From positions 1 to 48,487 of the forward strand of contig JAFIEM010000014.1 of NCBI GenBank assembly GCA_020832555.1: a stretch of DNA of 48,487 bases, written 5' to 3'. Under the pieces are notes generated by a model. The model made no database searches, had not been told where the DNA came from, and saw only the letters and a program-made list of their open reading frames with translations. A program made the translations under genes and the position numbers. Shown here piece after piece: positions 22,487-45,542 of the stretch; position 1 is the first letter of the stretch, and every line of letters starts with the position of its first letter. This DNA is from Natronohydrobacter sp. (lineage in GTDB: Bacteria > Pseudomonadota > Alphaproteobacteria > Rhodobacterales > Rhodobacteraceae).

Positions 22487-22546
22487 ATTTTATTGAATGA
22501 CGCTACTTCCCTATGTCAGGCGAAATCCCAATTCGGAGGTTTGGCC

Positions 22547-24079: not shown

Positions 24080-24101
24080 CCTTTTTGCTGGAGGTTTCCT
24101 T

Positions 24102-26465: not shown

Positions 26466-26475
26466 GATCGGATTT

Positions 26476-26502
26476 GCGCCTTGCGTTCGGGACGCAGGGC
26501 GC
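26476..26502 (+). terminator. Hairpin after dabA
   Basis: Arms GCGCCTTGCGT (26476-26486) and ACGCAGGGCGC (26492-26502) pair over 11 bases with one G-T wobble around TCGGG. It begins 11 bases after the dabA stop. No T-run follows, so it may act as an RNA-stabilising hairpin or a weak terminator before the chrA-like gene. Confidence 0.55.
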
Positions 26503-26516
26503 TAGACCTTGGGTCG

Positions 26517-28529: not shown

Positions 28530-28600
28530 AAAGCACAATCCGGCACTTGCCTTTGCGCATCTGTTCCCGCACGATGCCGCAAACCGTATCCGGGCGCGCC

Positions 28601-29332
28601 ATGGAATTGATACTTGCAGGACTGGCGCTCTTTCTGGGCGGTGTGATGAAAGGCGCGACGGGTGCCGGTGCACCTGTGGTCGCCGCGCCTGCTCTGACAA
28701 TGCTGTTCAATGTGCAGACGGCTGTCGCGGTGCTGGTCGTGCCCAATCTGCTGAGCAATATCTGGCAGGCCTGGCAGTTTCGCGCCCATGCGCTGGATCG
28801 CCGTTTCCTGCTGCTCTTTGCCGGGGGTGGGTTTCTGGGCGCGATCCTTGGCACCTGGCTGCTGGTTGTGCTGCGGCAGGAGTCGCTGGCGCTGATGGTG
28901 GCTTGCGCTGTCATTGCCTATATAGCGCTGCGCCTGTCGCGGCCTGACTGGGTTTTGCGGCGGGCCATGGCCGAGAGCGCTAGCGGCCCTGTCGGGCTGC
29001 TGGGTGGGGTCTTGCAGGGGGCGACGGGAATTTCTGCGCCTGCCTCGATCACCTTTCTGAACGCCATGCGCTTGCCGCGTCTGACCTTTATCGGCACGAT
29101 TGCGATTTTCTTCGTGGCAATGTCGCTGGCGCAACTGCCTGCGCTTTGGGTTGTCGGGCTGATCGACCTGCGGAGTCTGGCGCTGGGGCTGGGGGCGCTG
29201 GGGATGATCGGTCTGGGCATGCCGGTCGGTAACTGGCTGGCACGGCGATGGTCGCCGCAGGCGTTTGACCGTGTGATGCTGGGATTGCTCGCGCTGTTGG
29301 CGCTGCGGCTGGTGATCGGGGTGGTGGTCTAG
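28601..29332 (+). CDS. TauE/SafE-family membrane permease
   Basis: A 243-residue inner-membrane protein of the TauE/SafE (DUF81) family. The first repeat opens LAGLALFLGGVMKGATGAGAPVVAAPAL and the second contains LGGVLQGATGISAPASITFL; the paired G-A-T-G motifs are the family signature. About seven or eight helices are visible. Members export sulfite or sulfoacetate, or move other small anions. ATG 28601 is chosen on family resemblance; no good RBS is present, and in-frame starts at 28547 and 28574 are possible. Export of sulfite made by the desulfonation genes at 41058-43620 is possible but they are 12 kb away. Confidence 0.82.
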   Translation: MELILAGLALFLGGVMKGATGAGAPVVAAPALTMLFNVQTAVAVLVVPNLLSNIWQAWQFRAHALDRRFLLLFAGGGFLGAILGTWLLVVLRQESLALMVACAVIAYIALRLSRPDWVLRRAMAESASGPVGLLGGVLQGATGISAPASITFLNAMRLPRLTFIGTIAIFFVAMSLAQLPALWVVGLIDLRSLALGLGALGMIGLGMPVGNWLARRWSPQAFDRVMLGLLALLALRLVIGVVV

Positions 29333-31978: not shown

Positions 31979-32767
31979 TCAGAGCAGGGCTGACAATTCA
32001 TCTGCCGCGCGCTTCAGTCGCGGCAGATGAGTATAGCCCTGCTCGACGGATATGCGCTGGGTTGGTCCCTGAAAGGCGATGGTCGCTGGCATCCGGCCAT
32101 ATTGGTCACGCAGGGGCATGGCGAAGGCGATCACGCCTTCGAGAAATTCCTCGTTGTCTACGGCGAATCCCTGTTCGCGTATTTTCGTGATTTCTGCGCG
32201 CAGGGCATCGGGGTCGGTGATCGTGTTGGGGGTCATCTGCACCAGATCGGCATTGCGCAGATAGCTGTCCAGACGCAGATTGCTGAGCGTGGAGAGATAG
32301 ATCTTGCCGCCTGCCGTGCAATAGAATGGCACTTGTGCACCGACCGAGAATTGCACGCGCAGCGGCCATTCGGTTTCGACCCGGTCAAGATAGACCATCG
32401 CCTCGCGGTCGGGGATGGCGAAATTGCAGGTCTCGCCGATATCCTTGGCCAAGGCGCGCATGATTGCCAGGCGCGGTGTCCGCATCCGCATCGAAGACAT
32501 GGTGGCCACGGCCAGCGAGCGCGTGCGCGGGCCGACGGAATAGGCCCGCCCGTCGGGTTCGCGCTGCAGGTAGCCCTCGGCTTCGAGCGTCTGGAACAGG
32601 CGGTGCAGCGTCGCCTTGGGCAGTTCCGTCGTGCCGGTCAGTTCGGTGGGTGTGACGGGTCCGCCACGCCGGACCACTTCCTCCAGCAAGGTCAGCAACC
32701 GCAGGGTGGTCGGGATCCGTTCACTGCGATCCTCGTCCTCCTCCGGGGTCGTGATCTGATGCGTCAT
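31979..32767 (-). CDS. IclR-family regulator of the adjacent TRAP/GMC locus
   Basis: A 262-residue IclR-type regulator. The N-terminal winged HTH is visible as LRLLTLLEEVVRRGGPVTPTELTGTTELPKATLHRLFQTLEAEGYL, and the C-terminal effector domain includes NFAIPDREAMVYLDRVE and TAGGKIYLS, the usual IclR ligand-pocket segments. ATG 32767 is preferred over GTG 32776, whose RBS would be too close. It lies 32 bases after dctM in the same direction, so it is the last gene of the TRAP operon and probably controls it and the divergent GMC dehydrogenase. Confidence 0.86.
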   Translation of the reverse strand: MTHQITTPEEDEDRSERIPTTLRLLTLLEEVVRRGGPVTPTELTGTTELPKATLHRLFQTLEAEGYLQREPDGRAYSVGPRTRSLAVATMSSMRMRTPRLAIMRALAKDIGETCNFAIPDREAMVYLDRVETEWPLRVQFSVGAQVPFYCTAGGKIYLSTLSNLRLDSYLRNADLVQMTPNTITDPDALRAEITKIREQGFAVDNEEFLEGVIAFAMPLRDQYGRMPATIAFQGPTQRISVEQGYTHLPRLKRAADELSALL

Positions 32768-32799
32768 GACAAGCACTCACCTTCTTGGCCCCTTCAGGG

Positions 32800-34158
32800 T
32801 CAGGTCAATACCAGTGATAGCCACGGAACGAAAGCCACCAGCAGCCACACGCCGATCAGCGCGACGATATAGGGCACGATATAGCCGAGAAGTCGCATAT
32901 AGGGCACGCCTGTCACGCCGCTGGCGACATAGAGGTTCAGGCCATAGGGCGGCGTGATGAACCCGATGGAGCCACCGATCAGGAACACGACCGCGAAATG
33001 TACCGGATCGACACCGACACTGGCTGCAATCGGCGCAAGGATCGGGGCCATGATGATCGTGTTGGGCAGGCTTTCCAGCACCATTCCGGCGATGAACACG
33101 AAGAGCATGCACAGAAGCAGCACTGCATAATAGCCGCCGATTCCGGTCAGAAAGCCCTCGATTGCGTCCTTTGCGCCCAGAAGCGACAGGATCTGCTGCA
33201 TTACCACGGAAATCCCGATCAAGGGCGCGAGCATCCCCGCGATCCGCGCCGAGTTCAGCACGACCGCAGGCAGATCACGCAGGCGGAAGCCCTCGACCAG
33301 CACCATCTCGACCCAGCCGGGGGTGCGCGTCAGATCCTCGCTCTCGCTCTGGCCACGGTTGATCAGCAGATAGAGCGGGCGCGAGATCAGGGCCACGAGG
33401 ATACAGAAGCCCACAGTCACACCCGCCGCCTCGGTCGGAGAGAATTTACCAGTGTAGATCCCCCAGAGCACGAGGCCGATGGCGAAGAATCCGAGCCATG
33501 CCCCGAAAGCGGTGCGGATCATGCGGTTGATTTCCCAGCGGATCAGATGGCCCCAGCCATTCTTGCGGCAGATGATCCAGCAGGTGAACTGCATCCCCAG
33601 CACCATCAGCAGGCCCGGAATGATCCCGGCCAGAAACAGCTCGGAGATCGACAGGTTCATGATGAAGCCGTAGACGATGAAGATGATCGAGGGCGGAATG
33701 ATGATCCCGACCGTACCCCCTGCCGCTGCTGTGGCGGCGGCAAAGCGTTCGTCAAAGCCGTTCTTGACCATGCGCGGATGCATCATCGCGCCGATGGTTG
33801 CGGTCGTGGCCGAGTTCGAGCCGGAAATGGCCGCAAACAGCCCGCAAGCGCCGATACTGGCCATCCCAAGCCCGCCGCGCAACCAGCCCAGACAGGCATA
33901 GGCAAAGGCCGAGAGGCGCTGCGCGATGCCCGAGCGGTTGATCAGATCGCCTGTCAGGATGAACAGCGGCATGGCCAGCAGTGCGAATGAGGTCGTGAAG
34001 ACGGCAGAGAAGGCAAAGCCGATATTGTCGAGCGTCAGGTTGACCACGAAGCTCATGGCCACCACCCAGAGCGCGATCACCAGAAAGATCGGCACACCGA
34101 GGATGAACAGGGCCGTGGCCAGAAGCGAGTAGATCAGGGTCAGGGTTCCGTCGGTCAT
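32800..34158 (-). CDS. dctM: TRAP transporter large membrane subunit (system 1)
   Basis: A 452-residue DctM-family protein with about 12 helices. Motifs seen are FALLAMPLFILTGDLINRSGIAQRL, AISGSNSATTATIGAMMHPRM, GGTVGIIIPPSIIFIVYG, LPNTIIMAPILAPIA and VFLIGGSIGFITPPYGLNLYVASG, all characteristic of the ion-coupled channel subunit. It uses the sodium gradient to move the organic acid delivered by DctP. The gene starts 12 bases after dctQ. It is somewhat longer than the usual 425-430, with an insertion around RGQSESEDLTRTPGW. Confidence 0.92.
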   Translation of the reverse strand: MTDGTLTLIYSLLATALFILGVPIFLVIALWVVAMSFVVNLTLDNIGFAFSAVFTTSFALLAMPLFILTGDLINRSGIAQRLSAFAYACLGWLRGGLGMASIGACGLFAAISGSNSATTATIGAMMHPRMVKNGFDERFAAATAAAGGTVGIIIPPSIIFIVYGFIMNLSISELFLAGIIPGLLMVLGMQFTCWIICRKNGWGHLIRWEINRMIRTAFGAWLGFFAIGLVLWGIYTGKFSPTEAAGVTVGFCILVALISRPLYLLINRGQSESEDLTRTPGWVEMVLVEGFRLRDLPAVVLNSARIAGMLAPLIGISVVMQQILSLLGAKDAIEGFLTGIGGYYAVLLLCMLFVFIAGMVLESLPNTIIMAPILAPIAASVGVDPVHFAVVFLIGGSIGFITPPYGLNLYVASGVTGVPYMRLLGYIVPYIVALIGVWLLVAFVPWLSLVLT

Positions 34159-34170
34159 GGCGCTGATTTC

Positions 34171-34839
34171 CTATTCGCGGGCGAGTTCATTGGTCAGGCC
34201 GAATTCCTGCCCGGCGCGGTAATTGCGCACATCGGCAAGCAGATTTTCCAGCACACGGGCATAGAGGATCAGCCAGGCCACTGGAACGCAGATATAGAAC
34301 CACCAGCGCATCACATTGTCGGTGCCAAGCATGATCTGGAAATTTGCGGCTGAATTGGCCGTCAGACGCAGGGTCGCAACCACGACGATCACGGCCATGA
34401 CATACCACAGGATCGCATCGAGAAAGGACATGGCCAGCCGCGCCGTGGGCTGCATCATGGCGCGGACTTCGCCGAAAGACAGATGTGCGCGCAGTTTGAC
34501 ATTATAGGCGCAGCCGATCCATGTCAGGAGCAGGAACAGGTAGGGCGGCAATGTCGTGGACCATGCGGCCTGCACATTGAACACGAAACGGCGGATCACC
34601 TCGACGAAAATGATCATCGCGATGGCCATGTAGATGAAGAACATGGCCGTCGGTTCGAGATAGCGGTCAAGCAGCTTCACCTTGCGGAAGATCATCATGA
34701 TGATCAGCGACAGCGGCAGGATCAGGAAACTGATCACCCAGTAGAATGAGGGATCGCGGAAGGCGCGCGTGATGCCGCGTGGTCTGCCATCCATCAACGC
34801 ATCCCAAAGTGCGATAATCCCTGTCAGGACCTCTTCCAT
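34171..34839 (-). CDS. dctQ: TRAP transporter small membrane subunit (system 1)
   Basis: A 222-residue DctQ-family protein with four hydrophobic helices. The helices include VISFLILPLSLIIMMIF, PTAMFFIYMAIAMIIFVEVIRR, SFLDAILWYVMAVIVVVATLRL and WWFYICVPVAWLILYARV. The sequence between helices 2 and 3 (AAWSTTLPPYLFLLLTWIGCAYNVKLRAHLSF) follows the family pattern. It carries an unusually long N-terminus of about 35 residues. It is preceded by a hairpin that separates it from dctP. Confidence 0.87.
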   Translation of the reverse strand: MEEVLTGIIALWDALMDGRPRGITRAFRDPSFYWVISFLILPLSLIIMMIFRKVKLLDRYLEPTAMFFIYMAIAMIIFVEVIRRFVFNVQAAWSTTLPPYLFLLLTWIGCAYNVKLRAHLSFGEVRAMMQPTARLAMSFLDAILWYVMAVIVVVATLRLTANSAANFQIMLGTDNVMRWWFYICVPVAWLILYARVLENLLADVRNYRAGQEFGLTNELARE

Positions 34840-34931
34840 CGTCAGATGACCTTGCTGCTGTTACATGAGACAATATCTGCCACGGACGCAACGCGCCCTC
34901 AGATTTCGTCATGTGGAGATTTGTTGGAAAG

Positions 34932-34955
34932 CTGCCCGGCGCTGAGGCCGGGCAG
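34932..34955 (-). terminator. Attenuating hairpin between dctP and dctQM (system 1)
   Basis: Perfect 9-base arms CTGCCCGGC (34932-34940) and GCCGGGCAG (34947-34955) enclose six bases. Read on the minus strand, CTTTCC follows. It lies 17 bases after the dctP stop. Such hairpins let the binding protein be made in excess over the membrane subunits, which is the likely role here. Confidence 0.65.
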
Positions 34956-34972
34956 GTGTCACGGGCGCTGGA

Positions 34973-36202
34973 TCAGGATTTCCACCAGCGGCGCGGCTCG
35001 ACATTCTCGACCAGCATATCGGCCGGAATTTCGCGCGCGACGTCATGGATGATCTGATAGGTGTCCAGACCACCGGACCAACCATTGATCCGGTCACGCC
35101 ACTGTTCCCAGGCAGCCGGCTGGAACTCGGGCGAGCACATTTCCTCGGCCTCGCGCAGCGCTTCGGGTGACAGGAACGCATTGCGCACGCCATGTTCGTG
35201 GAAGATCGTGCCTTCTTGTTGCGGATTGGAGAAACCGACAGTATTCACCAGCGCGGCCTCATTGGCATATTGCGCCGCGATCTGCGCCAGATAGGACGAT
35301 TCCATCACCGCATCCTGAAGATCGCCACCCAGCTTGTCGAAGCTTTCCGAGGACATGGCCGTGTGCTCAGTGCCGCAGAAGAAGCGCAGGTCAACGGCCT
35401 GCGAAACAACCGGCGACATATTCGCATAGGCCACCGCAGAAGCCCAGGTTTCGGCCCCGTCGATCAGACCCTGACGCAGACCGTCAAGGGTTTCTTCCCA
35501 GGCGATCGGGCGCGGGTTCAGGTTCATCATCTCCATCGCCAGACGACCAAGCTGCGTGCCTGTCACCCGGTTCGAGGTGCCCGCAAGTTCAGTGACGCTG
35601 GTCACGAGCGGGCGGTCACGCCAGTTGTTGCCCAGCATGATGCCGCGCAATTCGCAATGCGTGAACAGGAACTTGATACCATGCATCTCTTCCAGCGGCT
35701 CGCGGAAGACCTTGTTGCTGTCGGGATGATAGAAGAAGTAATATTGTGCGGCGCGGCTGGGGAAGACATAGGCATAGTCCAGCACGTTCATGTAGGGCGC
35801 GCCACCTGCCGAGTTCTGCGTCGAGGCCGAGTACAGGTCAACAATGCCTTCCATCGTCTTGGTGACGCAATCGAGCTGTCCGCAGATCTGGTTGTCGCCG
35901 ATGAATTCGACGCGGATCTCGCCATCCGTGCGCTCTTCGATATCGCGGACGAATTCGAGGATGCCGTTGCGCTCGACCAGCAGGTTGCGCGCATTGAAGC
36001 CGGCAGCACCGTAGCGCAGAGTGTGGCGGGCTTCCTTGGCGAAGCGCTTGTCATAGGCTGACTCGACTGCCTTTGCCAGACTGGGCAGCGTGATCACCCC
36101 TGTCATGCCGCCAAGAGCAAGCATGGTTGAGCTCATCCCGAAACGTTGAGTGATACGCAGAAAATCCCGGCGTGAAATGCCGGAGAGGTCTCGTTTAGTC
36201 AT
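34973..36202 (-). CDS. dctP: TRAP transporter substrate-binding protein (system 1)
   Basis: A 409-residue periplasmic DctP-family protein. It has a Tat leader with twin arginines R11-R12 in SRRDFLR and a hydrophobic run to about residue 45. The core contains ADQ-type ligand-binding segments: VDLYSASTQNSAGGAPYMNVLDYAYVFPSR, FTHCELRGIMLG, then ELAGTSNRVTGTQLGRLAMEMMNLNPRPIAWEETLDGLRQGLIDGAETW. The arginine that anchors the carboxylate in DctP proteins would be expected near SNRVTGTQLGRL. The start follows GGAGGAG. Tat export suggests the protein folds before export. The ligand is unknown; the IclR regulator and GMC dehydrogenase suggest an alcohol or hydroxy-acid. Confidence 0.88.
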   Translation of the reverse strand: MTKRDLSGISRRDFLRITQRFGMSSTMLALGGMTGVITLPSLAKAVESAYDKRFAKEARHTLRYGAAGFNARNLLVERNGILEFVRDIEERTDGEIRVEFIGDNQICGQLDCVTKTMEGIVDLYSASTQNSAGGAPYMNVLDYAYVFPSRAAQYYFFYHPDSNKVFREPLEEMHGIKFLFTHCELRGIMLGNNWRDRPLVTSVTELAGTSNRVTGTQLGRLAMEMMNLNPRPIAWEETLDGLRQGLIDGAETWASAVAYANMSPVVSQAVDLRFFCGTEHTAMSSESFDKLGGDLQDAVMESSYLAQIAAQYANEAALVNTVGFSNPQQEGTIFHEHGVRNAFLSPEALREAEEMCSPEFQPAAWEQWRDRINGWSGGLDTYQIIHDVAREIPADMLVENVEPRRWWKS

Positions 36203-36336
36203 GGTCTCCTCCCTGAGTTTTGACTAAGCGGCGATTGTCGGTAATGTCTATTATTGAGACTTGTGGTTTCAAAAAAGCATCTGTATCTCTATGTGTCAAG
36301 CGAATTTGCATCGAAGATCAGGTCTGGGAGGGGCAG
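36203..36336. promoter_or_regulatory. Divergent promoter region between dctP and the GMC gene
   Basis: This 134-base AT-richer gap must hold both promoters and any IclR site. GTCT at 36246 and AGAC at 36257 form a short inverted repeat, too weak to claim as an operator. No other clear motif was found. Confidence 0.35.
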
Positions 36337-37971
36337 ATGTTCGACCATGAGGCAGATGTCATCATCGTGGGGGCTGGATCGGCTGGCTGCGCGCTGGCCA
36401 ACCGTCTGAGTGCCAACCCGAAACTGCGCGTGCTTTTGCTGGAGGCGGGTGGGCGCGATCTGAATCCCTGGATCCATGTGCCGGTCGGCTATTTCCGCAC
36501 GATGGGCGATCCGGCGCTGGACTGGTGCTATATGACCGAGCCCGATCCGGGTCTGAACGGGCGCCGCCTGCCCTGGCCGCGCGGCAAGGTGCTTGGGGGC
36601 TCGTCCTCGCTGAATGGGCTCTTGTATGTGCGGGGCCAGCCTGAGGATTATGACCGCTGGCAGCAGATGGGCAATCCCGGCTGGGGTTGGGATCAGGTGC
36701 TACCCTATTTTCGCCGGTCCGAGGATCAGGAGCGTGGCGAGGATGCGTTTCATGGCACAGGCGGCCCGCTCTCGGTCAGCAATGCCCGTCTGTCGCGCCC
36801 GATCTGCGATGCCTGGGTCCAGGCGGCACAGGCGGCGGGGTATCCGTTCAACCCTGACTATAACGGGGCGACGCAGGAAGGTGTGGGCTATTTCCAGCTT
36901 ACCAGTCGCAACGGGCGGCGGTGCAGTTCTGCCGTGGCCTATTTGAACCCCGCGCGCGGTCGCGCGAATCTGCAAATCCTGACCCATGCGCAGATCACGC
37001 GCATCCTGTTCGAGGGCAAGCGGGCCATCGGGGTGGAATGGCGTGGTGCGGATAGTGCGCTGCATACCGCGCGCGCGCATGGTCGAATTATCCTGTCGGC
37101 AGGGGCCATCGGCTCGCCGCAGATCCTGATGTTGTCGGGGATTGGCAATGCCGATCATCTGCGCAAACTCGGGGTCAGCCCGCGCGCGGATCTGCCCGGT
37201 GTGGGGCGCAACCTGCAAGATCACCTGCAGGCCCGGCTGGTGTTCCGCACCAGAAAGCCAACGCTGAATGACGAAGTCCGCAACCCGATCGACAAGGTGA
37301 AGATCGCGCTCAGATATGCGATCAACCGGACCGGGCCGATGACCATGGCGGCCTCGCTGGCGGCGGGCTTTCTGCGCACATCGTCCGATCTGGCGACACC
37401 GGATATCCAGTTCCATATCCAACCCTGGTCGGCGGACAGCCCCAGCGAAGGGGTGCATGATTTCTCGGCTTTCACCGTCTCGGTCTGCCAGTTGCGGCCA
37501 GAAAGCCGGGGCCATCTGGAGCTTGCCAGTCCTGACCCGAATCGCGCGCCGTTGATTCACCCGAATTATCTGGCCACACCTACGGATTGCCGTACCATCG
37601 TCGAAGCTGTGCGCATCTCGCGCGAGATTGCCCGTCATGCGCCGCTTCGTGACGAGATCCGGGACGAGTACAAGCCCGGTGACGGTGTTCTCGACAGCGA
37701 TGATGCCGCGATCCTGAACTGGGTGCGCAACAGCGCGACGACGATCTTTCATCCGACCGGCACCTGCAAGATGGGCCCGCAGAGTGACCCGAGTGCTGTC
37801 GTGGATGCGCGTCTGCGCGTGCATGGGATCGAGGGGTTGAGCGTGGCGGATTGTGCGATCATGCCGGAAATCGTGTCAGGCAATACCAATGCGCCTGCCA
37901 TCATGATCGGTGAGAAGCATAGCGATATGGTGCTGGAAGACCTGCGCGCCGGGATCTCCGTTACTGCTTAG
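36337..37971 (+). CDS. GMC-family FAD alcohol dehydrogenase
   Basis: A 544-residue glucose-methanol-choline oxidoreductase. ATG 36337 has GGGAGGGG about six bases upstream. Visible motifs: FAD dinucleotide fold GAGSAG (12-17) with LLLEAGG, GMC signature 1 in PRGKVLGGSSSLNGLLYVRG, GMC signature 2 in ILSAGAIGSPQILMLSGIG, the catalytic histidine H472 in TTIFHPTGTCKMG, and the second active-site position N516 in GNTNAP. Length and motifs fit the choline dehydrogenase/alcohol dehydrogenase branch. It oxidises an alcohol and passes electrons to quinone or another acceptor. It is divergent from a TRAP importer, so its substrate is probably what that importer brings in. Confidence 0.9.
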   Translation: MFDHEADVIIVGAGSAGCALANRLSANPKLRVLLLEAGGRDLNPWIHVPVGYFRTMGDPALDWCYMTEPDPGLNGRRLPWPRGKVLGGSSSLNGLLYVRGQPEDYDRWQQMGNPGWGWDQVLPYFRRSEDQERGEDAFHGTGGPLSVSNARLSRPICDAWVQAAQAAGYPFNPDYNGATQEGVGYFQLTSRNGRRCSSAVAYLNPARGRANLQILTHAQITRILFEGKRAIGVEWRGADSALHTARAHGRIILSAGAIGSPQILMLSGIGNADHLRKLGVSPRADLPGVGRNLQDHLQARLVFRTRKPTLNDEVRNPIDKVKIALRYAINRTGPMTMAASLAAGFLRTSSDLATPDIQFHIQPWSADSPSEGVHDFSAFTVSVCQLRPESRGHLELASPDPNRAPLIHPNYLATPTDCRTIVEAVRISREIARHAPLRDEIRDEYKPGDGVLDSDDAAILNWVRNSATTIFHPTGTCKMGPQSDPSAVVDARLRVHGIEGLSVADCAIMPEIVSGNTNAPAIMIGEKHSDMVLEDLRAGISVTA

Positions 37972-38030: not shown

Positions 38031-39089
38031 TTATTCCATATCCGCCTGACGTGCCGCCTCGATGGCTTCATTGGCTGCGGCTGCGTGGGCCATGAAGCTG
38101 TCCAGCACTTCCGGACCATGCGGTACATTGTTGCGGAACCAGTCGAATGCCGGATCGGCCGCATCCTTGAACATGGCTTTCTGCTCGTCCGTCGGCACAT
38201 AGATTTCGCCGCCTGCTGCGCGGAATGCCTCATAAGCGGCGATTTCCTTGCGCTTGGGGCTGGCAAAGGTGGCCTGCTGAAGGGCATCGAACCCGTCAAG
38301 GATAATGCGCTTATGCGCGTCCGACATGCCCATGAAACGGTCATTGTTCATCCACCAGAACGCGCCCATGTAGCTGTGATTGTCCAGCGTCAGGTATTTC
38401 AGACCGGCATCGGTGAAGCGCATGTTCATGATATCCGTGATCCCGTTTGCCGTGCCTTCAACCACACCGGTTTGCAGAGAGGTGAAGAGTTCGGGCCATG
38501 CAATCGGCGTGGGGGCCATGCCAAGCGCTGTTGCAAGTGTCTGGGGCAGGTCTGCCGGAACCGTGCGCATTTTCATGCCGACCAGATCAGCGGGGGTTTC
38601 GACGCGGCGCAGCGTGTTGGCATAGCCGCGCCAGCCGCCGGTATTGCCAATGGACATCAGCCGGATCAGCCCGTCGCTGTCGGCCAGCGCAAGATCACGG
38701 ATTTCGCGCGTGAAGCTGGTCTGGGTCAGGATGTATTCCGCCTCACGGTCGCCATCCATCAGATAGGGCAGATCGAGCACCTGGATATAGGGAAACAGAC
38801 CCGCAGCGCCGCCCGAGGTGGACACGAAAATGTCGATTGAGCCATCGGCGACACCGGCCAGACACTCATCGCCGCGGGTGCAAAGCTGGGTGCCGATGAA
38901 CAGGTCTACAGCAATCGCGCCGTTGGACGCGTTCTCGACGAAGTTCTTGAAGACCACAAGGCCGTCATAATCCTCGTCATCTTCATTGGATGTTGCGGTT
39001 GCGCGCAGGGTGATGTCCTGCGCGAAAGCCGTCACGGGTGCCGCCAGCATCGTGGCCACGAGCAGCGATTTCAGGGTTGTCTTCAACAT
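38031..39089 (-). CDS. dctP: TRAP transporter substrate-binding protein (system 2, sulfosugar locus)
   Basis: A 352-residue DctP-family periplasmic protein. It has a Sec signal peptide (about 1-23, ending VTAFAQ). Core segments are VDLFIGTQLCTRGDECLAGVADGSIDIFVSTSGGAAGLFPYIQVLDLPYL, then LVGMKMRTVPADLPQTLATALGMAPTPIAWPELFTSLQTGVVEGTANGI, and the anchoring arginine is expected in MKMRTVPAD. The start follows GGGAGG. It is the last gene of the operon beginning with the SsuD-like monooxygenase, 31 bases after dctM. If the operon degrades sulfoquinovose or its glyceride, this is the candidate ligand. TRAP binding proteins normally bind carboxylates, though sulfonates are also known ligands. Confidence 0.88.
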   Translation of the reverse strand: MLKTTLKSLLVATMLAAPVTAFAQDITLRATATSNEDDEDYDGLVVFKNFVENASNGAIAVDLFIGTQLCTRGDECLAGVADGSIDIFVSTSGGAAGLFPYIQVLDLPYLMDGDREAEYILTQTSFTREIRDLALADSDGLIRLMSIGNTGGWRGYANTLRRVETPADLVGMKMRTVPADLPQTLATALGMAPTPIAWPELFTSLQTGVVEGTANGITDIMNMRFTDAGLKYLTLDNHSYMGAFWWMNNDRFMGMSDAHKRIILDGFDALQQATFASPKRKEIAAYEAFRAAGGEIYVPTDEQKAMFKDAADPAFDWFRNNVPHGPEVLDSFMAHAAAANEAIEAARQADME

Positions 39090-39120
39090 TGTGGTTTTCC
39101 TCCCTTTGGATGTTTGAAGA

Positions 39121-40410
39121 TCATTGAACGAACCCGAACAGACGCGGCACTGTCAGCGTCAGCGCGGGGATGAAGGTAAGCAGGAAGATGACCGCGACCT
39201 GCACCGCCAGAAAGGGCAGAATCGCTTTCGACAGGGTTTCCAGCCGCAGACCGGAAACCGACGATGTGACGAACAGCACAAGTCCCATCGGTGGCGTGAG
39301 CAACCCGACAGTCAGGTTCACCGCCATGATGATCGCGAAATGCACCGGATCGACACCCAGTTCGATGAAGATCGGCCCAAGGATCGGCCCGAGGATGATG
39401 ATCGCGGGGCCTGCATCGAGGAACATGCCGACGATGAACAAGAGCAGGTTGATCAGGAACAGCAGGATCAGCGGATTGTCCGACAGCGCAAGGATGATGC
39501 CCGCCATCTGTTCGGGTGTGCGGGCAAGGGCCGCCACGGTCTTGAAGGCCATTGCGGCACCGACCAGCAGCAGCACCACTGCAGAGGTGATCCCCGCGCG
39601 GGTCAGCACATCGGGAATATCCTGCACTTTCAGCGAGCGCATGATGAACAGCGAGACAATCAGCGCATAGCCCACGGCCACGGCGGCGGCCTCTGTCGGG
39701 GTCATGATGCCGCCAAGGATGCCGCCCAGAATGATGACCGGCGTCATCAGCGGCCAGAAGGCGCGCAAACTCGCCTGACCGCGTTCGCCCCAGCTTGCGC
39801 GTTTGGTTGCTGCGGGCAGTTCATACTTGTCGGCCAGAAGTGCGACGGCAACCATAAGACCCACGGCCATCAGGATACCCGGCACGATCCCTGCAAGGAA
39901 CAGCGCGGCGACGCTTTCGCCCATCACATAGGCATAGATGATCATGATGCCCGAGGGCGGGATGATCGGGCCAATGATGGAACTGGCGGCGGTGATCGCA
40001 GCGGCAAAGCGCTTCTTGTAGCCGTTCTTTTCCATCGCCGGGATCAGCATGGAGCCGAGTGCCGAGACATCTGCGACCGCAGAACCCGACATGCCCGCAA
40101 ACAGCATCGACGACAGCACATTCACATGCGCCAGACCACCCCGGAAATGCCCGACAAGCGCCTGGCTGAACTCGACCAGCCGCAAGGTGATGCCGCCCCG
40201 GTTCATCAATTCGCCCGCCAGCATGAAGAAGGGAATGGCCATCAGCGGGAAGCTGTCCATGCCATTATAGACATTGCGATACAGAAGCGTGATGTCGCGC
40301 TCCATCCCTGACAGGTACAGCAGGATGCCAGGCGCGGCCAGAAGCGCGAAGAAAACCGGCAATCCAAGGAACAGGAAGACCAGAAAGACGGGCAGGAAGA
40401 AGCTCAGCAT
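39121..40410 (-). CDS. dctM: TRAP transporter large membrane subunit (system 2)
   Basis: A 429-residue DctM-family protein, standard length. ATG 40410 follows the dctQ stop with a one-base gap, so translation is coupled. Motifs: MAIPFFMLAGELMNRGGITLRLVEFS, LFAGMSGSAVADVSALGSMLIPAM, SIIGPIIPPSGIMIIYAYVMGES, GPAIIILGPILGPIF and NLTVGLLTPPMGLVLFVTS. These are the conserved blocks of the TRAP channel subunit. It is co-transcribed with the desulfonation genes upstream. Confidence 0.93.
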   Translation of the reverse strand: MLSFFLPVFLVFLFLGLPVFFALLAAPGILLYLSGMERDITLLYRNVYNGMDSFPLMAIPFFMLAGELMNRGGITLRLVEFSQALVGHFRGGLAHVNVLSSMLFAGMSGSAVADVSALGSMLIPAMEKNGYKKRFAAAITAASSIIGPIIPPSGIMIIYAYVMGESVAALFLAGIVPGILMAVGLMVAVALLADKYELPAATKRASWGERGQASLRAFWPLMTPVIILGGILGGIMTPTEAAAVAVGYALIVSLFIMRSLKVQDIPDVLTRAGITSAVVLLLVGAAMAFKTVAALARTPEQMAGIILALSDNPLILLFLINLLLFIVGMFLDAGPAIIILGPILGPIFIELGVDPVHFAIIMAVNLTVGLLTPPMGLVLFVTSSVSGLRLETLSKAILPFLAVQVAVIFLLTFIPALTLTVPRLFGFVQ

Positions 40411-40411
40411 G

Positions 40412-41002
40412 TCATTCGGCCCCCAGAACCACTTGATCGGAAATTTCAGGCAGGTCTGCACTGCGCCCGAGAAGCGAGATCACCTCGCGCAGCATCAGTT
40501 CGAGCGTGACCGAGATCAGCGCGCCGATGCCCACCAGCATCGAAGTCATCTGCCAGCTTTTCGGCACTTTCTTCCAAGTGGACAGATCCCAGCTTGTCGG
40601 AATGTTCAGGCTGTCGGTGCCGAACCGCCCGGCCAGACCCGTGACTTCACGCAGGCCGATCTGCCAGGCCTTGTAGAGGATGATCAATGCGAGGCTGAAC
40701 AGTGCCAGTGTCAGCAGGTGACGCAACAGGCGCGGAAGCAGCACGACCAGCAATTCGATGGCGACAAAGCCGCCGCGCCGATAGGCCGTGCCGATCATCA
40801 GCCCTGCCGACCACAGCATCAGGAAGCGCGAGGCTTCCTCGGGCCAGGGCAGTGCAGTGCCGATGATGTAGCGGAAAAACACCTGTGCGAGGATAAAGAC
40901 GACCATCAGCAAGATGCAGAACGCCCCAAGCCAGCGCCCCAGCGTAAGGGCGCTGGCATTGACCAGTGCAAACAGTCGTGACAGGCCAATAAGCACCTGC
41001 AT
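40412..41002 (-). CDS. dctQ: TRAP transporter small membrane subunit (system 2)
   Basis: A 196-residue DctQ-family protein. ATG 41002 is chosen because GGAGGAG lies about eight bases upstream; the frame is open further but reads as non-membrane residues. Four helices are visible (LGAFCILLMVVFILAQVFFRYII, FLMLWSAGLMIGTAY, HLLTLALFSLALIILY, MLVGIGALISVTLELML). The family motif PWPEEASRF sits after helix 1. It begins 55 bases after the flavin reductase stop. Confidence 0.9.
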   Translation of the reverse strand: MQVLIGLSRLFALVNASALTLGRWLGAFCILLMVVFILAQVFFRYIIGTALPWPEEASRFLMLWSAGLMIGTAYRRGGFVAIELLVVLLPRLLRHLLTLALFSLALIILYKAWQIGLREVTGLAGRFGTDSLNIPTSWDLSTWKKVPKSWQMTSMLVGIGALISVTLELMLREVISLLGRSADLPEISDQVVLGAE

Positions 41003-41057
41003 CCGTGGCTCTCCTCCCTGTTGCGACCCCCCTCTCCCAAAGGGTGTCGGTTGCGTT

Positions 41058-41576
41058 TCAGCCCAAGGGGCTGAACCCGCCATAATGTCCCTGACTGAAG
41101 ATCAGGGGTGCCCCCGGCCGACAGGCCGCGCGCAGAACTTCGCCCACGATGATCACATGATCACCGCCCTCATGAGTTGCGTGCTGGCGGCAGTCGAAGC
41201 GCGCGAGCGCCTGCGACAGAACCGGCACGCCCTCTGGCGTCAGGGTGAAATCGAGACCGTCAAAGCCCGGTCCGCCGCGCACGAAACGCCCCAGAAGCCC
41301 ATGCGCGTCACGCGGCATGACATGGATCGCGTAGTGCTGTGCGGCCAGATAATGCGGAAACCGCTGCGAGGATTTCGCGGGCGACCACAGGACCAGCGCC
41401 GGGTCGAGCGAGACAGCTGCGAAGCTGTTGGCGGCAAAGCCCATCGGCCCTGCGCTGCTCTGGATCGTCACCAATGTGACCCCGGTGGCGAACTGCCCCA
41501 AGGCATCGCGGAACGCCCGCGATGTCTCGGGGCCGGGGACAAACTCCATGGGTTGCATCTGTCCACCATCCGCCAT
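41058..41576 (-). CDS. smoA: Flavin reductase of the sulfo-SMO type desulfonation system
   Basis: A 172-residue flavin reductase-like protein (HpaC/SmoA class). Typical segments are FRDALGQFATGVTLVTI, GFAANSFAAVSLDPALVLWSPAKSS, the catalytic-loop LGRFVRGGPGFDGLDF and GGDHVIIVGEVL near the end. It reduces FMN with NAD(P)H and supplies it to a two-component monooxygenase. The start ATG 41576 overlaps the aldo/keto reductase stop as TGATG. Position directly after an SsuD-like monooxygenase and an aldo/keto reductase is the gene set smoA-smoB-smoC of the sulfoquinovose monooxygenase pathway. The general activity is well supported; the pathway name is inferred. Confidence 0.8.
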   Translation of the reverse strand: MADGGQMQPMEFVPGPETSRAFRDALGQFATGVTLVTIQSSAGPMGFAANSFAAVSLDPALVLWSPAKSSQRFPHYLAAQHYAIHVMPRDAHGLLGRFVRGGPGFDGLDFTLTPEGVPVLSQALARFDCRQHATHEGGDHVIIVGEVLRAACRPGAPLIFSQGHYGGFSPLG

Positions 41577-42463
41577 CACGCCACCTCGCGTCCCAAGGCG
41601 AGCGTATAGAGTTCAAACCAGGTCTGCCGGTCCATCTGGACTTTCAGCGCATCGGAAATTTGCGCGATCCGGCCGAGATTGTTCGTGCCCATCACCGGCA
41701 AAATCCCTGACGGATGATGCAGGAGCCATGCGACAGCCACCGCGCTCCAATCGGCGCCGACATCGGCCCCGATCGTGTCGAGTTTCTCGCGCATTGCGCC
41801 GGGCTTCGACAGCGCGCCGCCTGCCAGTGGCGACCATGCCATCGGCGCGATCCGGTGCTGGTGCAGATAGGCGATATCGCCATTTACGAAGGCTTCATGC
41901 GCCGACAGGCTGAGTTCGATCTGGTTCGTGACCAGCCGCGCCGTCATTCGCGATTGCAGCAGGTCCATATCCCACGGGCGGAAATTCGACACGCCCACAG
42001 CGCGCACCTTGCCACTCGACACAAGCCCATCCAGCGCAGCACCCGTTTCATCGGGGTTGATCAGCGGATCGGGGCGGTGGATCAGCAAAAGATCGATGCG
42101 GTCCGTCGCCATGTCGCGCAGACTTGCCTCGACCGAGGCTGTGATATGCGCGGCAGAGGTGTCGTAATGCTTGATCCGCGCGCCCGAGTGGCGTCCGACC
42201 GGGGCCACGATATCGCATTTCGTGACAATCTCGATCTGGTCGCGCAATTCGGGCGCGGCTTTCAGGGCCGCGCCAAAGATCGCCTCGGCGGTATAGCCGC
42301 CATAGATATCGGCCTGATCCATCGTGGTGATGCCCTGTGCAAGACAGGCTTCCACCTTGGCCTGCACATGCGCGGGGCTGGTATCCATGTCATCGCCCAG
42401 CCGCCACATGCCATAGACAAGGCGCGAGAGGGACAGATCGGCGGTCAGTTCACTACGTTCCAT
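41576..42463 (-). CDS. smoB: Aldo/keto reductase, probable 6-oxo-glucose reductase
   Basis: A 295-residue aldo/keto reductase resembling E. coli YdhF. The catalytic tetrad is D49, Y54, K82 and H129, in MDQADIYGGY, VTKCD and LLLIHRPDP. The NADPH-binding end includes VMGTNNLGRI. In the sulfo-SMO pathway SmoB reduces the 6-oxo-glucose left after removal of sulfite to glucose. The start overlaps the monooxygenase stop as TAATG and the stop overlaps the flavin reductase start, so all three proteins are made in step. The family call is firm; substrate rests on context. Confidence 0.82.
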   Translation of the reverse strand: MERSELTADLSLSRLVYGMWRLGDDMDTSPAHVQAKVEACLAQGITTMDQADIYGGYTAEAIFGAALKAAPELRDQIEIVTKCDIVAPVGRHSGARIKHYDTSAAHITASVEASLRDMATDRIDLLLIHRPDPLINPDETGAALDGLVSSGKVRAVGVSNFRPWDMDLLQSRMTARLVTNQIELSLSAHEAFVNGDIAYLHQHRIAPMAWSPLAGGALSKPGAMREKLDTIGADVGADWSAVAVAWLLHHPSGILPVMGTNNLGRIAQISDALKVQMDRQTWFELYTLALGREVA

Positions 42464-43620
42464 TAACGGCGGGGTCCATTTCCAAGCGGTGTTGCGGGGG
42501 TTTCGGCGGGCACACGGCCATAGGCATGGGGCAGCGAGACGGTGTTGAGATGCGGCATGACCTTGGTGCCGAAAATCTCGGCCTCGTCATGGTGCGGGTA
42601 GCCGGAGAAGATGAAAGCACGAATGCCCATCTTGCGGTATTCTTCCAGCTTGGTGAGCACCTGATCGACCGAACCGACCAGCGCTGCCCCACAGCCGGAA
42701 CGCGCGCGCCCGACCCCGGTCCAGAGGTTTGGTTCGGCATAGCCATATTTGTCCGCCAGTTCCCGTGCGCGGGCCTGATGTGACACGCCCAGACTGATAC
42801 TGTCATGCGCCCGGTCGCGGATCAGTTTGCCGTATTCATCATCGAGCTTGCTGGCGATATGATCGGCATATTCGCGCGCCTCGGCTTCGGTGTCGCGCAC
42901 GATCATATGCACGCGCAGGCCGTAATCGAGCGTCCGGCCATGCGCTTCGGCGCGGGCATGAACGTCGCGCATCCGCTTTTCCAGCATCTCGCGCGGCTCG
43001 GGCCACATCAGATAGACGTCGCATTGCGCCCCGCAGAGTTCCAAAGCGTCGGGCGAATAGCCGCCGAAATAGAGAAGTGGCCCGCCATTCTGCTGATAGG
43101 GCCGCGCAGGGTCCGCCGTCAGCTTGCTGATCTGGTAGATCTCGCCGTCATATTCGATCTCGTCGCGGGTCCATGCCTGGCGCAGGATCTCGACCACCTC
43201 GTGGCTGCGCTTGTAGCGATAGGCGCTTTCCGCCACTTCACCGGGGAAATCGCTTGAGATCACATTCAGCGTCAACCGCCCCTTGAGCATGTGATCGAGC
43301 GTTGCCACGGTCCGCGCGAGCATGACGGGCTGCATCTCGCCACAGCGAATCGCGGCAAGGAAGTTGATGCGGTCGGTGATCGGCGCGCAGCCCGCCACGA
43401 AAGAGAGCGTGTCCTGCCCGACCTGATAGCTGGAGGGGCACAGGATATTGCGAAACCCGTTCTTTTCGGCGGTTTTCACGATGCTGGAGCAATGTTCCCA
43501 GCTTGAGCGCAGGCGTCCGTCGGGCACGCCGAGATATTCGTAATCATCCGAGCAGAGCGCTGCGAACCAGCTGACCTCTGCCCCGTCCAGATCGGCCGAA
43601 GTGACGGGCACGATACTCAT
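42463..43620 (-). CDS. smoC: SsuD-like flavin monooxygenase, probable sulfoquinovose monooxygenase
   Basis: A 385-residue LLM-class FMNH2-dependent monooxygenase. ATG 43620 has GGAG six bases upstream; ATG 43632 has no proper spacing. Residues matching the alkanesulfonate monooxygenase SsuD active site can be aligned by motif: C61 (for Cys54) in NILCPSSYQ, R236 and H238 (Arg226, His228) in YGLRVHMIVRDTE, R307 (Arg297) in GRARSGCGAALVG, and Y341 (Tyr331) in FSGYPHHDEAE. This supports carbon-sulfur bond cleavage releasing sulfite. With the coupled flavin reductase and aldo/keto reductase it fits SmoC, which converts sulfoquinovose to 6-oxo-glucose plus sulfite. Another alkane- or sugar-sulfonate cannot be excluded. 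First gene of the operon, divergent from gntR. Confidence 0.8.
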   Translation of the reverse strand: MSIVPVTSADLDGAEVSWFAALCSDDYEYLGVPDGRLRSSWEHCSSIVKTAEKNGFRNILCPSSYQVGQDTLSFVAGCAPITDRINFLAAIRCGEMQPVMLARTVATLDHMLKGRLTLNVISSDFPGEVAESAYRYKRSHEVVEILRQAWTRDEIEYDGEIYQISKLTADPARPYQQNGGPLLYFGGYSPDALELCGAQCDVYLMWPEPREMLEKRMRDVHARAEAHGRTLDYGLRVHMIVRDTEAEAREYADHIASKLDDEYGKLIRDRAHDSISLGVSHQARARELADKYGYAEPNLWTGVGRARSGCGAALVGSVDQVLTKLEEYRKMGIRAFIFSGYPHHDEAEIFGTKVMPHLNTVSLPHAYGRVPAETPATPLGNGPRR

Positions 43621-43665
43621 GAAATTCTCCATCCCCCATGTATCTTTTCGCTTGCTAGCACCTTG

Positions 43666-43678
43666 GATTTAGTAAATC
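43666..43678. promoter_or_regulatory. Palindromic operator candidate between smoC-like and gntR genes
   Basis: A 13-base palindrome with arms GATTTA and TAAATC around a single G. It lies 45 bases before the monooxygenase start and 42 before the GntR gene, in AT-rich sequence. A short repeated ATCAAT follows. Size and odd symmetry suit a GntR/HutC regulator; the assignment is inference. Confidence 0.5.
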
Positions 43679-43720
43679 AATAGTGTATCAATTTTTGTTT
43701 TCGGAATGGTGGACGATCCG

Positions 43721-44422
43721 ATGACCCAACTTGGCGCGCTGCCTCTTCATATACAGATCACGGAGCTGATGATCCGGGATATCGCCGCCGGACGGCTGGT
43801 CGATGGAGAGCGGCTGGCGCCTGAGCGCGAGATGGCGGCCGGCTATGGGATCGCGGTCGGCACGCTGCGCAAGGCACTGGCAAGCCTGCAGGAAAAGGGC
43901 TTGCTGGAGCGGGTGCAGGGGTCCGGCAACTACATTCGCGCCAAGGCTGATACCGATTCGGTCTACGCGTTTCTGCGGCTGGAACTGGCCGAAGGGGGCG
44001 GCTTGCCACAAGCGCGCGTGCTGTCTGTGGATCGCCTGCCCAAAGACCCCGCCCTGCCCGATTTCGGCCCTCACCCGGAAGGCCATCGAATCCGCCGGTT
44101 GCGGTTTCTGTCGGGCACTGTCGCAGCTGTCGAGGAAATCTGGCTGGATGCCAGCCATGCCGAGCGTCTTTCCACGGCGGAACTCTCTGAATCGCTCTAC
44201 TACTTCTATGCCACGCGCCTGAACCTGCGCATTGCGCGGGCCGAGGATCGCGTGGGACAGGGGCCGCTGCCCGATTGGGCGCCGCAGGAATTCCCGCATG
44301 CACCGGGCACGCCCCTGCCCCTGATTACCCGCATCAGCCACGGCCATGAAGGCACGCCCGTCGAGGCGTCCTGGACCTGGTATGACCCTGAGCGGGTTCG
44401 CTACACTGTCAGACTCAAATAA
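43721..44422 (+). CDS. GntR-family (HutC subfamily) regulator
   Basis: A 233-residue regulator with an N-terminal GntR winged helix (about 5-70: LPLHIQITELMIRDIAAGRLVDGERLAPEREMAAGYGIAVGTLRKALASLQEKGLLERVQGSGNYI) and a C-terminal UTRA ligand domain (about 80-230). The domain ends with GTPLPLITRISHG and WTWYDPERVRYTV. ATG 43721 is preferred for its GGTGGA spacing; ATG 43706 adds five residues. It is divergent from the smoC-like operon and four bases ahead of the Gfo/Idh gene, so it most likely controls the whole locus. SmoD of the known sulfo-SMO locus is also a regulator gene; whether it is the same family is not certain here. Confidence 0.87.
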   Translation: MTQLGALPLHIQITELMIRDIAAGRLVDGERLAPEREMAAGYGIAVGTLRKALASLQEKGLLERVQGSGNYIRAKADTDSVYAFLRLELAEGGGLPQARVLSVDRLPKDPALPDFGPHPEGHRIRRLRFLSGTVAAVEEIWLDASHAERLSTAELSESLYYFYATRLNLRIARAEDRVGQGPLPDWAPQEFPHAPGTPLPLITRISHGHEGTPVEASWTWYDPERVRYTVRLK

Positions 44423-44426
44423 GGAC

Positions 44427-45542
44427 ATGACCTTGGAACAGATACGATATGGCATCATCGGCTGCGGCATGATGGGTCAGGAACACCTGCGCAATCTGGC
44501 GCTTGTCGAGGGGGCGGTGGCCGCCGCAATTTTCGAGCCGGACGCCGCCATGCGCGCGCAGGCGCAGGCTTTTGCCCCCGAAGCAGAGATGGTTGCCTCG
44601 GTCGAGGCGCTGCTGGCCGTGCCCGGACTGGATGCGCTGCTGATCGCCAGCCCCAATGACCTGCATGTGCCGCAGATCCGTCAGATCGCCGCGACGCGCC
44701 CCTTGCCCTTGCTGGTCGAGAAACCGGTTTTCACCGACCCGGCGGATTACGATGCGCTGATGGCGCTGGACTATCCCGCGCCGATCTGGGTGGCGATGGA
44801 ATATCGTTACATGCCGCCCGTTGCCGCACTGGTGGAACAGGCGCAGGGTATCACCGGCGGCATCAAGATGCTGACCATCCGCGAGCACCGTTTTCCGTTT
44901 CTGGAGAAGGTGGGCGACTGGAACCGTTTCAATGCGCGCACAGGCGGCACGCTGGTCGAGAAATGCTGCCATTTCTTCGACCTGATGCGGCTGATACTGC
45001 AGGACAACCCGGTGCGGATCATGGCCTCTGGCGGGCAGGATGTGAATCACCGCGACGAGATCTATGATGGCCAGCCCTCGGACATCTGGGACAATGCCTA
45101 TGTCATCGTTGATTTTGCGGGTGGCGCGCGGGCGATGCTGGAACTGTGCATGTTCGCCGAAGGGGCGCGCTATCAGGAAGAAATCACCGCTGTCGGGCCA
45201 GAGGCGCGAATCGAATGTCTGGTGCCGGGGCCGGGGCGGTTCTGGCCTGAACATCTGGGCGCACCGCCCGTGCCGCAACTGATTGTCAGCCCGCGCAACC
45301 CCAAGGGACCGCGCCTGATCGAAGTGCCGGTGGATGCGACGTTGCTGGAAGCGGGGGATCACAATGGGTCCACATTCTACCAGCACGACCGTTTTGCGAA
45401 ACTCGTGCGCGGGCGCGGCAAGGTCGAGGTCGGGCTGTCCGACGGAATGTGGGCTGTGCAGATGGGGCTGGCCGCGCAACAGGCCGCGCGGACCGGGAAA
45501 GTGGTGCATCTGGACGCGGCGGGGCGGATCTTGGCAGAATAA
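44427..45542 (+). CDS. Gfo/Idh/MocA-family NAD-dependent protein, candidate sulfoquinovosidase
   Basis: A 371-residue Gfo/Idh/MocA-family protein. The Rossmann motif GCGMMG (12-17) and the EKP motif (98-100, in LLVEKPVF) are clear. The C-terminal domain has GDWNRFNARTGGTLVEKCCHFFDLMRLI with the family's active-site histidine, and WDNAYVIVDFAGGARAMLEL. It starts four bases after gntR; TTG 44433 is an alternative start with better RBS spacing. Members act as sugar dehydrogenases or as NAD-dependent glycosidases. NAD-dependent sulfoquinovosidases (GH188) are reported in sulfoquinovose gene clusters of the Roseobacter clade that lack the GH31 enzyme. No GH31 gene is in this locus, so that role is a good candidate, but a plain dehydrogenase is possible. 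Confidence 0.75.
   Translation: MTLEQIRYGIIGCGMMGQEHLRNLALVEGAVAAAIFEPDAAMRAQAQAFAPEAEMVASVEALLAVPGLDALLIASPNDLHVPQIRQIAATRPLPLLVEKPVFTDPADYDALMALDYPAPIWVAMEYRYMPPVAALVEQAQGITGGIKMLTIREHRFPFLEKVGDWNRFNARTGGTLVEKCCHFFDLMRLILQDNPVRIMASGGQDVNHRDEIYDGQPSDIWDNAYVIVDFAGGARAMLELCMFAEGARYQEEITAVGPEARIECLVPGPGRFWPEHLGAPPVPQLIVSPRNPKGPRLIEVPVDATLLEAGDHNGSTFYQHDRFAKLVRGRGKVEVGLSDGMWAVQMGLAAQQAARTGKVVHLDAAGRILAE

Follow-up and report, generated by a model that had tools for sequence, protein, structure and literature searches.

A putative sulfolytic sulfoquinovose locus of Natronohydrobacter sp. apparently served by a TRAP transporter

Plant and algal membranes contain the sulfur sugar sulfoquinovose (SQ). 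The sulfoquinovose monooxygenase (sulfo-SMO) pathway of Agrobacterium comprises the enzymes SmoABC, the ATP-binding cassette (ABC) importer SmoEFGH and the glycoside hydrolase family 31 (GH31) sulfoquinovosidase SmoI. According to the accessible text of Kaur 2023 (PMC10755693), the annual production of this sulfur sugar amounts to about 10 billion tons, GH188 is near-universal in the sulfo-SMO clusters of marine Roseobacters, and the founders of this family are the SqgA enzymes of PDB entries 8QC2 and 8QC3. The accessible portions of PMC12421959, PMC10507020, PMC11659671, PMC6386719 and PMC1544339 link tripartite ATP-independent periplasmic (TRAP) transporters with taurine, sulfolactate and isethionate, and ABC systems with the uptake of SQ. 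In the literature text examined, which did not extend to Sharma 2022, Liu 2023 or the supplements of Kaur 2023, neither a TRAP importer tied to SQ nor a description of SQ uptake by GH188-bearing Rhodobacteraceae was found. Here, a locus of Natronohydrobacter sp. (Rhodobacteraceae; assembly GCA_020832555.1, contig JAFIEM010000014.1) is described in which a complete sulfolytic SQ catabolic unit is probably fed by a TRAP importer. It occupies positions 38,031 to 45,542 of the 48,487 nucleotides analysed, hereafter the window.

The genes smoC, smoB, smoA, dctQ, dctM and dctP follow each other in this order on one strand and diverge from gntR and a GH188 gene (Table 1). Open reading frame (ORF) positions and Pfam domains recover all eight genes where a first-pass annotation of the sequence had placed them, and the stop-to-start overlaps it described, TAATG at smoC/smoB and TGATG at smoB/smoA, can be read in the sequence. 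The best PDB matches of SmoC are 7olf (E 8.8e-228) and 7oh2 (E 7.9e-219), which bear generic names but which we take to be SmoC structures; SsuD-type entries match only at E 3e-58 to 6e-58. Over the parts of both sequences shown, 7olf is nearly identical to the protein of an Agrobacterium locus (L081) whose neighbouring genes are presumably, going by the pathway of that organism, the GH31 sulfoquinovosidase and SmoF. The window SmoC is 84% identical to this Agrobacterium SmoC. In a phylogeny, chosen beforehand as a possible refutation and rooted with a single E. coli SsuD on a long branch, the window monooxygenase falls inside the SmoC clade together with the Agrobacterium enzyme (support 87/97) and apart from SsuD.

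The active-site signature put forward earlier turned out to be less telling. Counterparts of SsuD Arg226, His228, Arg297 and Tyr331 are present as Arg240, His242, Arg311 and Tyr345 (SsuD numbering without Met1; the E. coli record is one residue longer), but the same four positions are kept in SsuD itself and in all 29 other rows of the alignment. They therefore fail to set an SQ monooxygenase apart, and the motif was rejected as a mark of SQ specificity. The proposed counterpart of Cys54 is missing: in the alignment with E. coli SsuD this residue faces Val71, and the nearby Cys65 is a different position. SmoB has its best PDB match in 7bby (E 2.4e-139), and SmoA carries a Flavin_Reduct domain and is 50-60% identical to the genes in SmoA position of Agrobacterium and Rhizobium. 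With NCBIfam, no model scored above its cut-off for the enzymes, SmoA included, or for GntR; only the TRAP models TIGR00786 and NF037995 passed.

The gene following gntR, formerly described as Gfo/Idh, does show the divergent position and the GFO_IDH_MocA domain, but its identity had been missed, as by homology it encodes a GH188 sulfoquinovosidase. It matches 8zn9 (E 3.3e-165), 8qc2 (E 1.1e-118) and 8qc3 (E 1.4e-118), the next entry following at E 4.1e-14. The sulfonate-binding residues Arg-x3-Leu-x-Lys, taken from the available text of PMC11465081 and PMC10755693, are found as Arg156-x3-Leu160-x-Lys162 (numbered from 44424) and are kept in all 84 GH188 proteins compared. Because the enzyme needs NAD+ and no signal peptide is recognized by eye, it should work in the cytoplasm. 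By homology, GH188 is thus the sulfoquinovosidase of the locus in place of GH31; neither the SmoEFGH importer nor the GH31 enzyme SmoI is present in the window. A GH31 sulfoquinovosidase elsewhere in the same genome is unsupported, its four GH31 matches (contigs C66 and C74) being 26-28% identical to SmoI. These form matching pairs (L086-L089), with 95.6% identity in the one stretch compared, and from this near-identity the assembly may mix strains.

The layout is by no means special to this genome. Among 80 related loci, the best of 308 relatives, the importer is of the TRAP type in 47, of the SmoF-type ABC in eight and another ABC system in seven, with none recognized in 18. All six genes keep this order on a single strand in 46 of the 80, which is more than chance, and the 47th TRAP locus (L075) is cut before dctP. 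GntR and GH188 accompany the TRAP genes in 45 of the 47, the remaining two being contigs of about 8 kb, whereas the eight SmoF loci invariably carry GH31 and never TRAP or GH188. Nine of eleven plasmid records with a SmoC of more than 73% identity were examined (H6 and H7 were left out): TRAP genes are found in eight and the full six-gene order in seven; on the Qingshengfaniella plasmid the monooxygenase is directly followed by TRAP genes, and the Marinovum plasmid has an ABC system. In 149 Rhodobacteraceae genomes (cut-offs E<=1e-150 for SmoC, E<=1e-80 for DctP and GH188), SmoC is present in 61, this type of DctP in 54 and GH188 in 74. In 37 genomes no more than 10 kb separate DctP from SmoC; in 11 further ones that lack SmoC at this cut-off, GH188 is equally near to DctP, and in G048, G126, G133 and G147 DctP stands beside SmoA or SmoB. 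It adjoins an SQ gene in 52 of its 54 genomes, the exceptions being G014 and G102 (the stretch examined shows dctQMP only).

The same transporter is also associated with a second SQ chemistry. Nine of eleven loci without SmoC (L092, L093, L094, L095, L098, L099, L101, L108 and L109) carry TRAP and GH188 together with a PfkB kinase and a fucose-isomerase-like protein. The best PDB match of the kinase in L092 is sulfofructose kinase (E 3.7e-59), and the second protein matches the SQ isomerase model with E 5.2e-83, a score below the cut-off of that model. Eight of the nine (all except L095) additionally possess a DeoC/LacD aldolase, a 2-hydroxyacid dehydrogenase and a DeoR gene. By homology, the nine loci are of the Embden-Meyerhof-Parnas (sulfo-EMP) type. 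In a DctP tree of 63 family rows, limited to matches that span at least 90% of the query without interruption (L093, L098 and L108 were among those excluded), the six placeable sulfo-EMP rows are scattered among the SMO rows, requiring a minimum of three changes. A TRAP system common to two SQ chemistries argues for SQ or an SQ glycoside as its substrate and points to a transporter that follows SQ rather than one catabolic route. Apart from these loci, SmoB and/or SmoA, or GntR with GH188, stand beside TRAP genes in genomes without SmoC (L097 in G040, L103 and L116 in G126, L100 in G048, L096 in G143), where the SmoC search gave no match at E<=1e-3 in G126, G048 and G143 and only a 30% relative in G040. 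A gene for a Rieske oxygenase is oriented divergently to smoB in G126; possibly, another desulfonating enzyme operates in these loci.

Conversely, loci of one SQ chemistry carry different importers. On the SmoC tree the window falls into a starred clade of six rows, the others being L002, L003 and L006 (ABC), L005 (TRAP) and L004 (cut), and over the typed loci the importer changes at least seven times. This DctP is missing at E<=1e-60 from 17 of 20 genomes with non-TRAP loci, including those of L002, L003, L040 and L081; the other three (L051, L057, L067) carry it elsewhere. In these three, a glycerate kinase-like gene (by eye, among the rows listed) lies downstream of smoA, and dctQMP is unlinked and preceded by the operator site described below. 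A major facilitator superfamily (MFS) gene beside GH188 in Pseudotabrizicola-type loci was not accepted as importer, as L007 and L011 possess both the MFS gene and TRAP.

Shared operator sites also connect the importers. A direct-repeat site like AATTGATACACTATTGATCTACAT is found in 85 of 85 smoC/gntR gaps, corresponding to 84 distinct loci (L001 copies the window). At a threshold of >=18 bits, the matrix built from it detects 113 sites in 127 non-duplicate loci (L001, L103, L110-L112, L117 and the E. coli locus L118 were dropped) and none in five rounds of shuffled sequence. Beyond the 84 training gaps, 26 of 29 sites precede SQ-locus genes, among the sites listed. Among them are sites before smoE of the SmoEFGH importer in all eight SmoF loci, before another ABC importer (ABC2) in two near relatives of the window (L002 and L003), before dctQ in L113, L114 and L115 and before an unlinked GH188 gene in L131. 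Thus three of the four genomes in which dctQMP is unlinked from smoCBA have the site in front of dctQMP; in the nine sulfo-EMP loci no site of >=8 bits is present. As an unbiased test, the 149 genomes were scanned over their whole length with the pattern, one mismatch being allowed. The 53 sites obtained are distributed over 50 genomes, and 46 of these sites lie no more than 250 bp from smoC; the reversed pattern had no match. Five of the seven more distant sites precede gntR, smoB, smoA, GH188 or the importer of G112. The GntR protein is the presumable binder of the direct repeat. If importers are exchanged under one conserved operator, sites in SmoC genomes without this TRAP would reveal further SQ importers. 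G032 is such a genome, where an EamA-type transporter gene near a strong unlinked site is a candidate SQ importer or exporter. The G112 site (L127, 4894) is weaker, with 22.5 bits, and is situated between an FGGY-kinase/DAO pair resembling glpK/glpD and the ABC importer, as if the glycerol of SQ-glycerol were within the regulon.

The transporter itself shows the DctP, DctQ and DctM families of a TRAP set as well as the receptor fold in the DctP model, whose closest match is the isethionate receptor IseP (PDB 8t9t) at about 21% identity. Arg175, which we take to be the general TRAP ligand arginine, is invariant in the DctP family and aligns with an arginine in the five PDB receptors shown. The family has invariant motifs of its own, for example DED-DG near residue 40, and two cysteines (70 and 76). 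A reading of the ligand pocket from the model, calculated from 38 sequences, was dropped because confidence is too low there.

Taken together, the conserved gene order, the second SQ pathway and the common operator sites support the earlier proposal that a TRAP system takes the place of the ABC importer; by comparison of loci this replacement is well supported. DctP would capture SQ-glycerol, its likeliest ligand, and probably SQ as well, in the periplasm and hand it over to the DctQM permease, which would drive uptake by an ion gradient. In the cytoplasm, GH188 with NAD+ would cleave SQ-glycerol into SQ and glycerol. With reduced flavin supplied by SmoA, SmoC would then split off sulfite from SQ by means of O2, and the resulting 6-oxo-glucose would be reduced to glucose by SmoB. 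Both divergent units, and elsewhere whichever importer serves the pathway, would be controlled by the GntR/UTRA regulator at its operator. The enzyme activities and the TRAP ligand in this scheme are predictions from homology and gene context. It is slightly more likely than not that this TRAP family is dedicated to importing the intact glycoside SQ-glycerol in Rhodobacteraceae and Rhizobiaceae whatever the pathway, that it feeds both SMO and EMP-type catabolism, and that two or more kinds of ABC importers are swapped with it under one operator.

Several observations weigh against the proposed TRAP-fed unit or weaken its support. This DctP is absent from 21 of the 61 SmoC genomes, and 18 of the 80 related loci show no recognized importer, several of them lying on short contigs. 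The seven importer changes derive from one quick tree with types labelled by neighbourhood, and for two of the seven 'other ABC' loci (L006 and L057) the label stands for an ATPase gene alone, the genome of L057 having the TRAP elsewhere. The operator matrix was trained on the 85 gaps, so that the 84 loci fit by construction, and the stretches yielding the 26 of 29 further sites were mostly chosen for SQ-locus genes. An operator match at one mismatch is lacking in 12 of the 61 SmoC genomes, and in G102, where dctQMP lies on another contig, no site occurs within 650 bp before dctQ. One whole-genome site falls inside a heparinase-like gene (G115) and that of G032 (L129, 10743; 37.6 bits) about 200 bp before the EamA-type gene, overlapping the end of a trypsin-like gene. 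Finally, confidence in the DctP model is modest (predicted local distance difference test, pLDDT, 73.8; below 50 in the pocket region), and the TRAP receptors matched among PDB structures bind small acids, for instance isethionate or sialic acid, and not glycosides.

This last point is also what favors import of free SQ only, with SQ glycosides entering otherwise or being cut elsewhere, and the accessible text of Kaur 2023 (PMC10755693) indeed cites an earlier proposal of Roseobacters as users of free SQ only. However, the NAD+-requiring GH188 is carried by 52 of the 54 DctP genomes (all but G048 and G094), and because it should act in the cytoplasm, the glycoside would have to be imported; together with the weak G112 site between glpK/glpD-like genes and an ABC importer, this makes restriction to free SQ unlikely. 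Still less probable is a transporter of C4-dicarboxylates or C2/C3 sulfonates that neighbors the SQ genes by history. The family name, the fold of the isethionate receptor and TRAP systems described beside taurine, sulfolactate and isethionate genes (available text of PMC10507020 and PMC6386719) would fit, but the near-constant association of DctP with SQ genes, its occurrence in two SQ pathways, the operator at unlinked dctQMP in three of four cases and the exchange of TRAP and ABC genes at the same place speak strongly against it. That the locus handles another sulfonate or sulfosugar is scarcely credible: the named active-site positions are common to the general alkanesulfonate enzyme SsuD and the best PDB matches are generically named, yet SmoC closely resembles the Agrobacterium protein from a locus with GH31 sulfoquinovosidase and SmoF, and none of the 84 GH188 proteins compared lacks the SQ sulfonate-binding motif.

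If the TRAP system carries SQ-glycerol, the entry step is named, its genes could serve in metagenomes as a marker of SQ use by any catabolic route, and the operator finds unlinked members of the regulon. The range of TRAP ligands would at the same time be extended from acids to a sulfonated glycoside.

Table 1. Genes and regulatory element of the locus, in window coordinates.
Feature	Position	Strand	Evidence
smoC, flavin-dependent SQ monooxygenase (predicted)	42463..43632	-	Pfam Bac_luciferase; PDB 7olf; SmoC clade
smoB, aldo/keto reductase (6-oxo-glucose reductase by homology)	41576..42463	-	Pfam Aldo_ket_red; PDB 7bby
smoA, flavin reductase (predicted)	41058..41579	-	Pfam Flavin_Reduct
dctQ, TRAP small permease	40412..41002	-	Pfam DctQ; ORF open from 41083, start by eye
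dctM, TRAP large permease	39121..40410	-	Pfam DctM; TIGR00786 above cut-off; ORF open from 40461, start by eye
dctP, TRAP substrate receptor, proposed SQ/SQ-glycerol binder	38031..39089	-	Pfam DctP; ortholog group beside SQ genes
Direct-repeat operator AATTGATACACTATTGATTTACTA, smoC/gntR gap	43670..43693	-	24 bp; sole pattern match in own genome
gntR, GntR/UTRA regulator, proposed operator binder	43706..44422	+	Pfam GntR, UTRA
GH188 NAD+-dependent sulfoquinovosidase (predicted; formerly "Gfo/Idh")	44427..45542	+	PDB 8zn9, 8qc2, 8qc3; Pfam GFO_IDH_MocA

Starts were read by eye from the sequence. That of dctQ most likely lies at 41002, behind GGAGGAG and 55 nt after smoA, and that of dctM at 40410; dctP begins 31 nt after dctM, and the GH188 ATG at 44427 follows gntR by 4 nt. 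Candidate sulfite exporters are found as well. A PF03601 'putative sulfate exporter' gene lies 3' of dctP in the plasmid records L082 (12850-13857), L085 and L126; the window has no PF03601 gene at this position, but elsewhere in its genome (C42, L090) a relative shares 70% identity with the L082 counterpart. A TauE/SafE-family permease is encoded in the window at 28547-29332, about 9 kb from the locus. Furthermore, the window harbors a second TRAP set at 31979-37971, whose dctM, dctQ and dctP were recognized by eye; Pfam identifies an IclR regulator and a GMC oxidoreductase along with it. At 22493-27890, three consecutive genes code for a DabA inorganic-carbon transporter subunit, a partner of the proton-antiporter type and a chromate transporter.

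Public annotation already places TRAP genes beside a luciferase-like monooxygenase (LLM) oxygenase, so a published picture of this layout may well exist; within the literature text found, what is new is a widespread importer variant of a known pathway, strongly backed by locus comparison and by the operator sites. IseP resembles DctP as a TRAP receptor for a sulfonate and as its best fold match, but differs in sequence, as given above, and in its ligand, a small C2 sulfonate instead of a sulfosugar. The sulfo-EMP-type Rhodobacteraceae loci (L092 and eight others) share the type of dctQMP and GH188 with the window and differ in their isomerase-kinase-aldolase chemistry, their DeoR regulator (8/9) and the absence of an operator site of >=8 bits. 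The Roseobacter sulfo-SMO clusters, whose importer is not discussed in the accessible text of Kaur 2023 (PMC10755693), likewise contain GH188 within a cluster devoid of a classical sulfoquinovosidase, and the locus described here very likely represents the same kind of cluster. Also close is the sulfo-SMO system of Agrobacterium, with which the window has SmoC, SmoB, SmoA, a related GntR diverging from smoC and the same operator in common, while TRAP stands in for SmoEFGH and GH188 for GH31.

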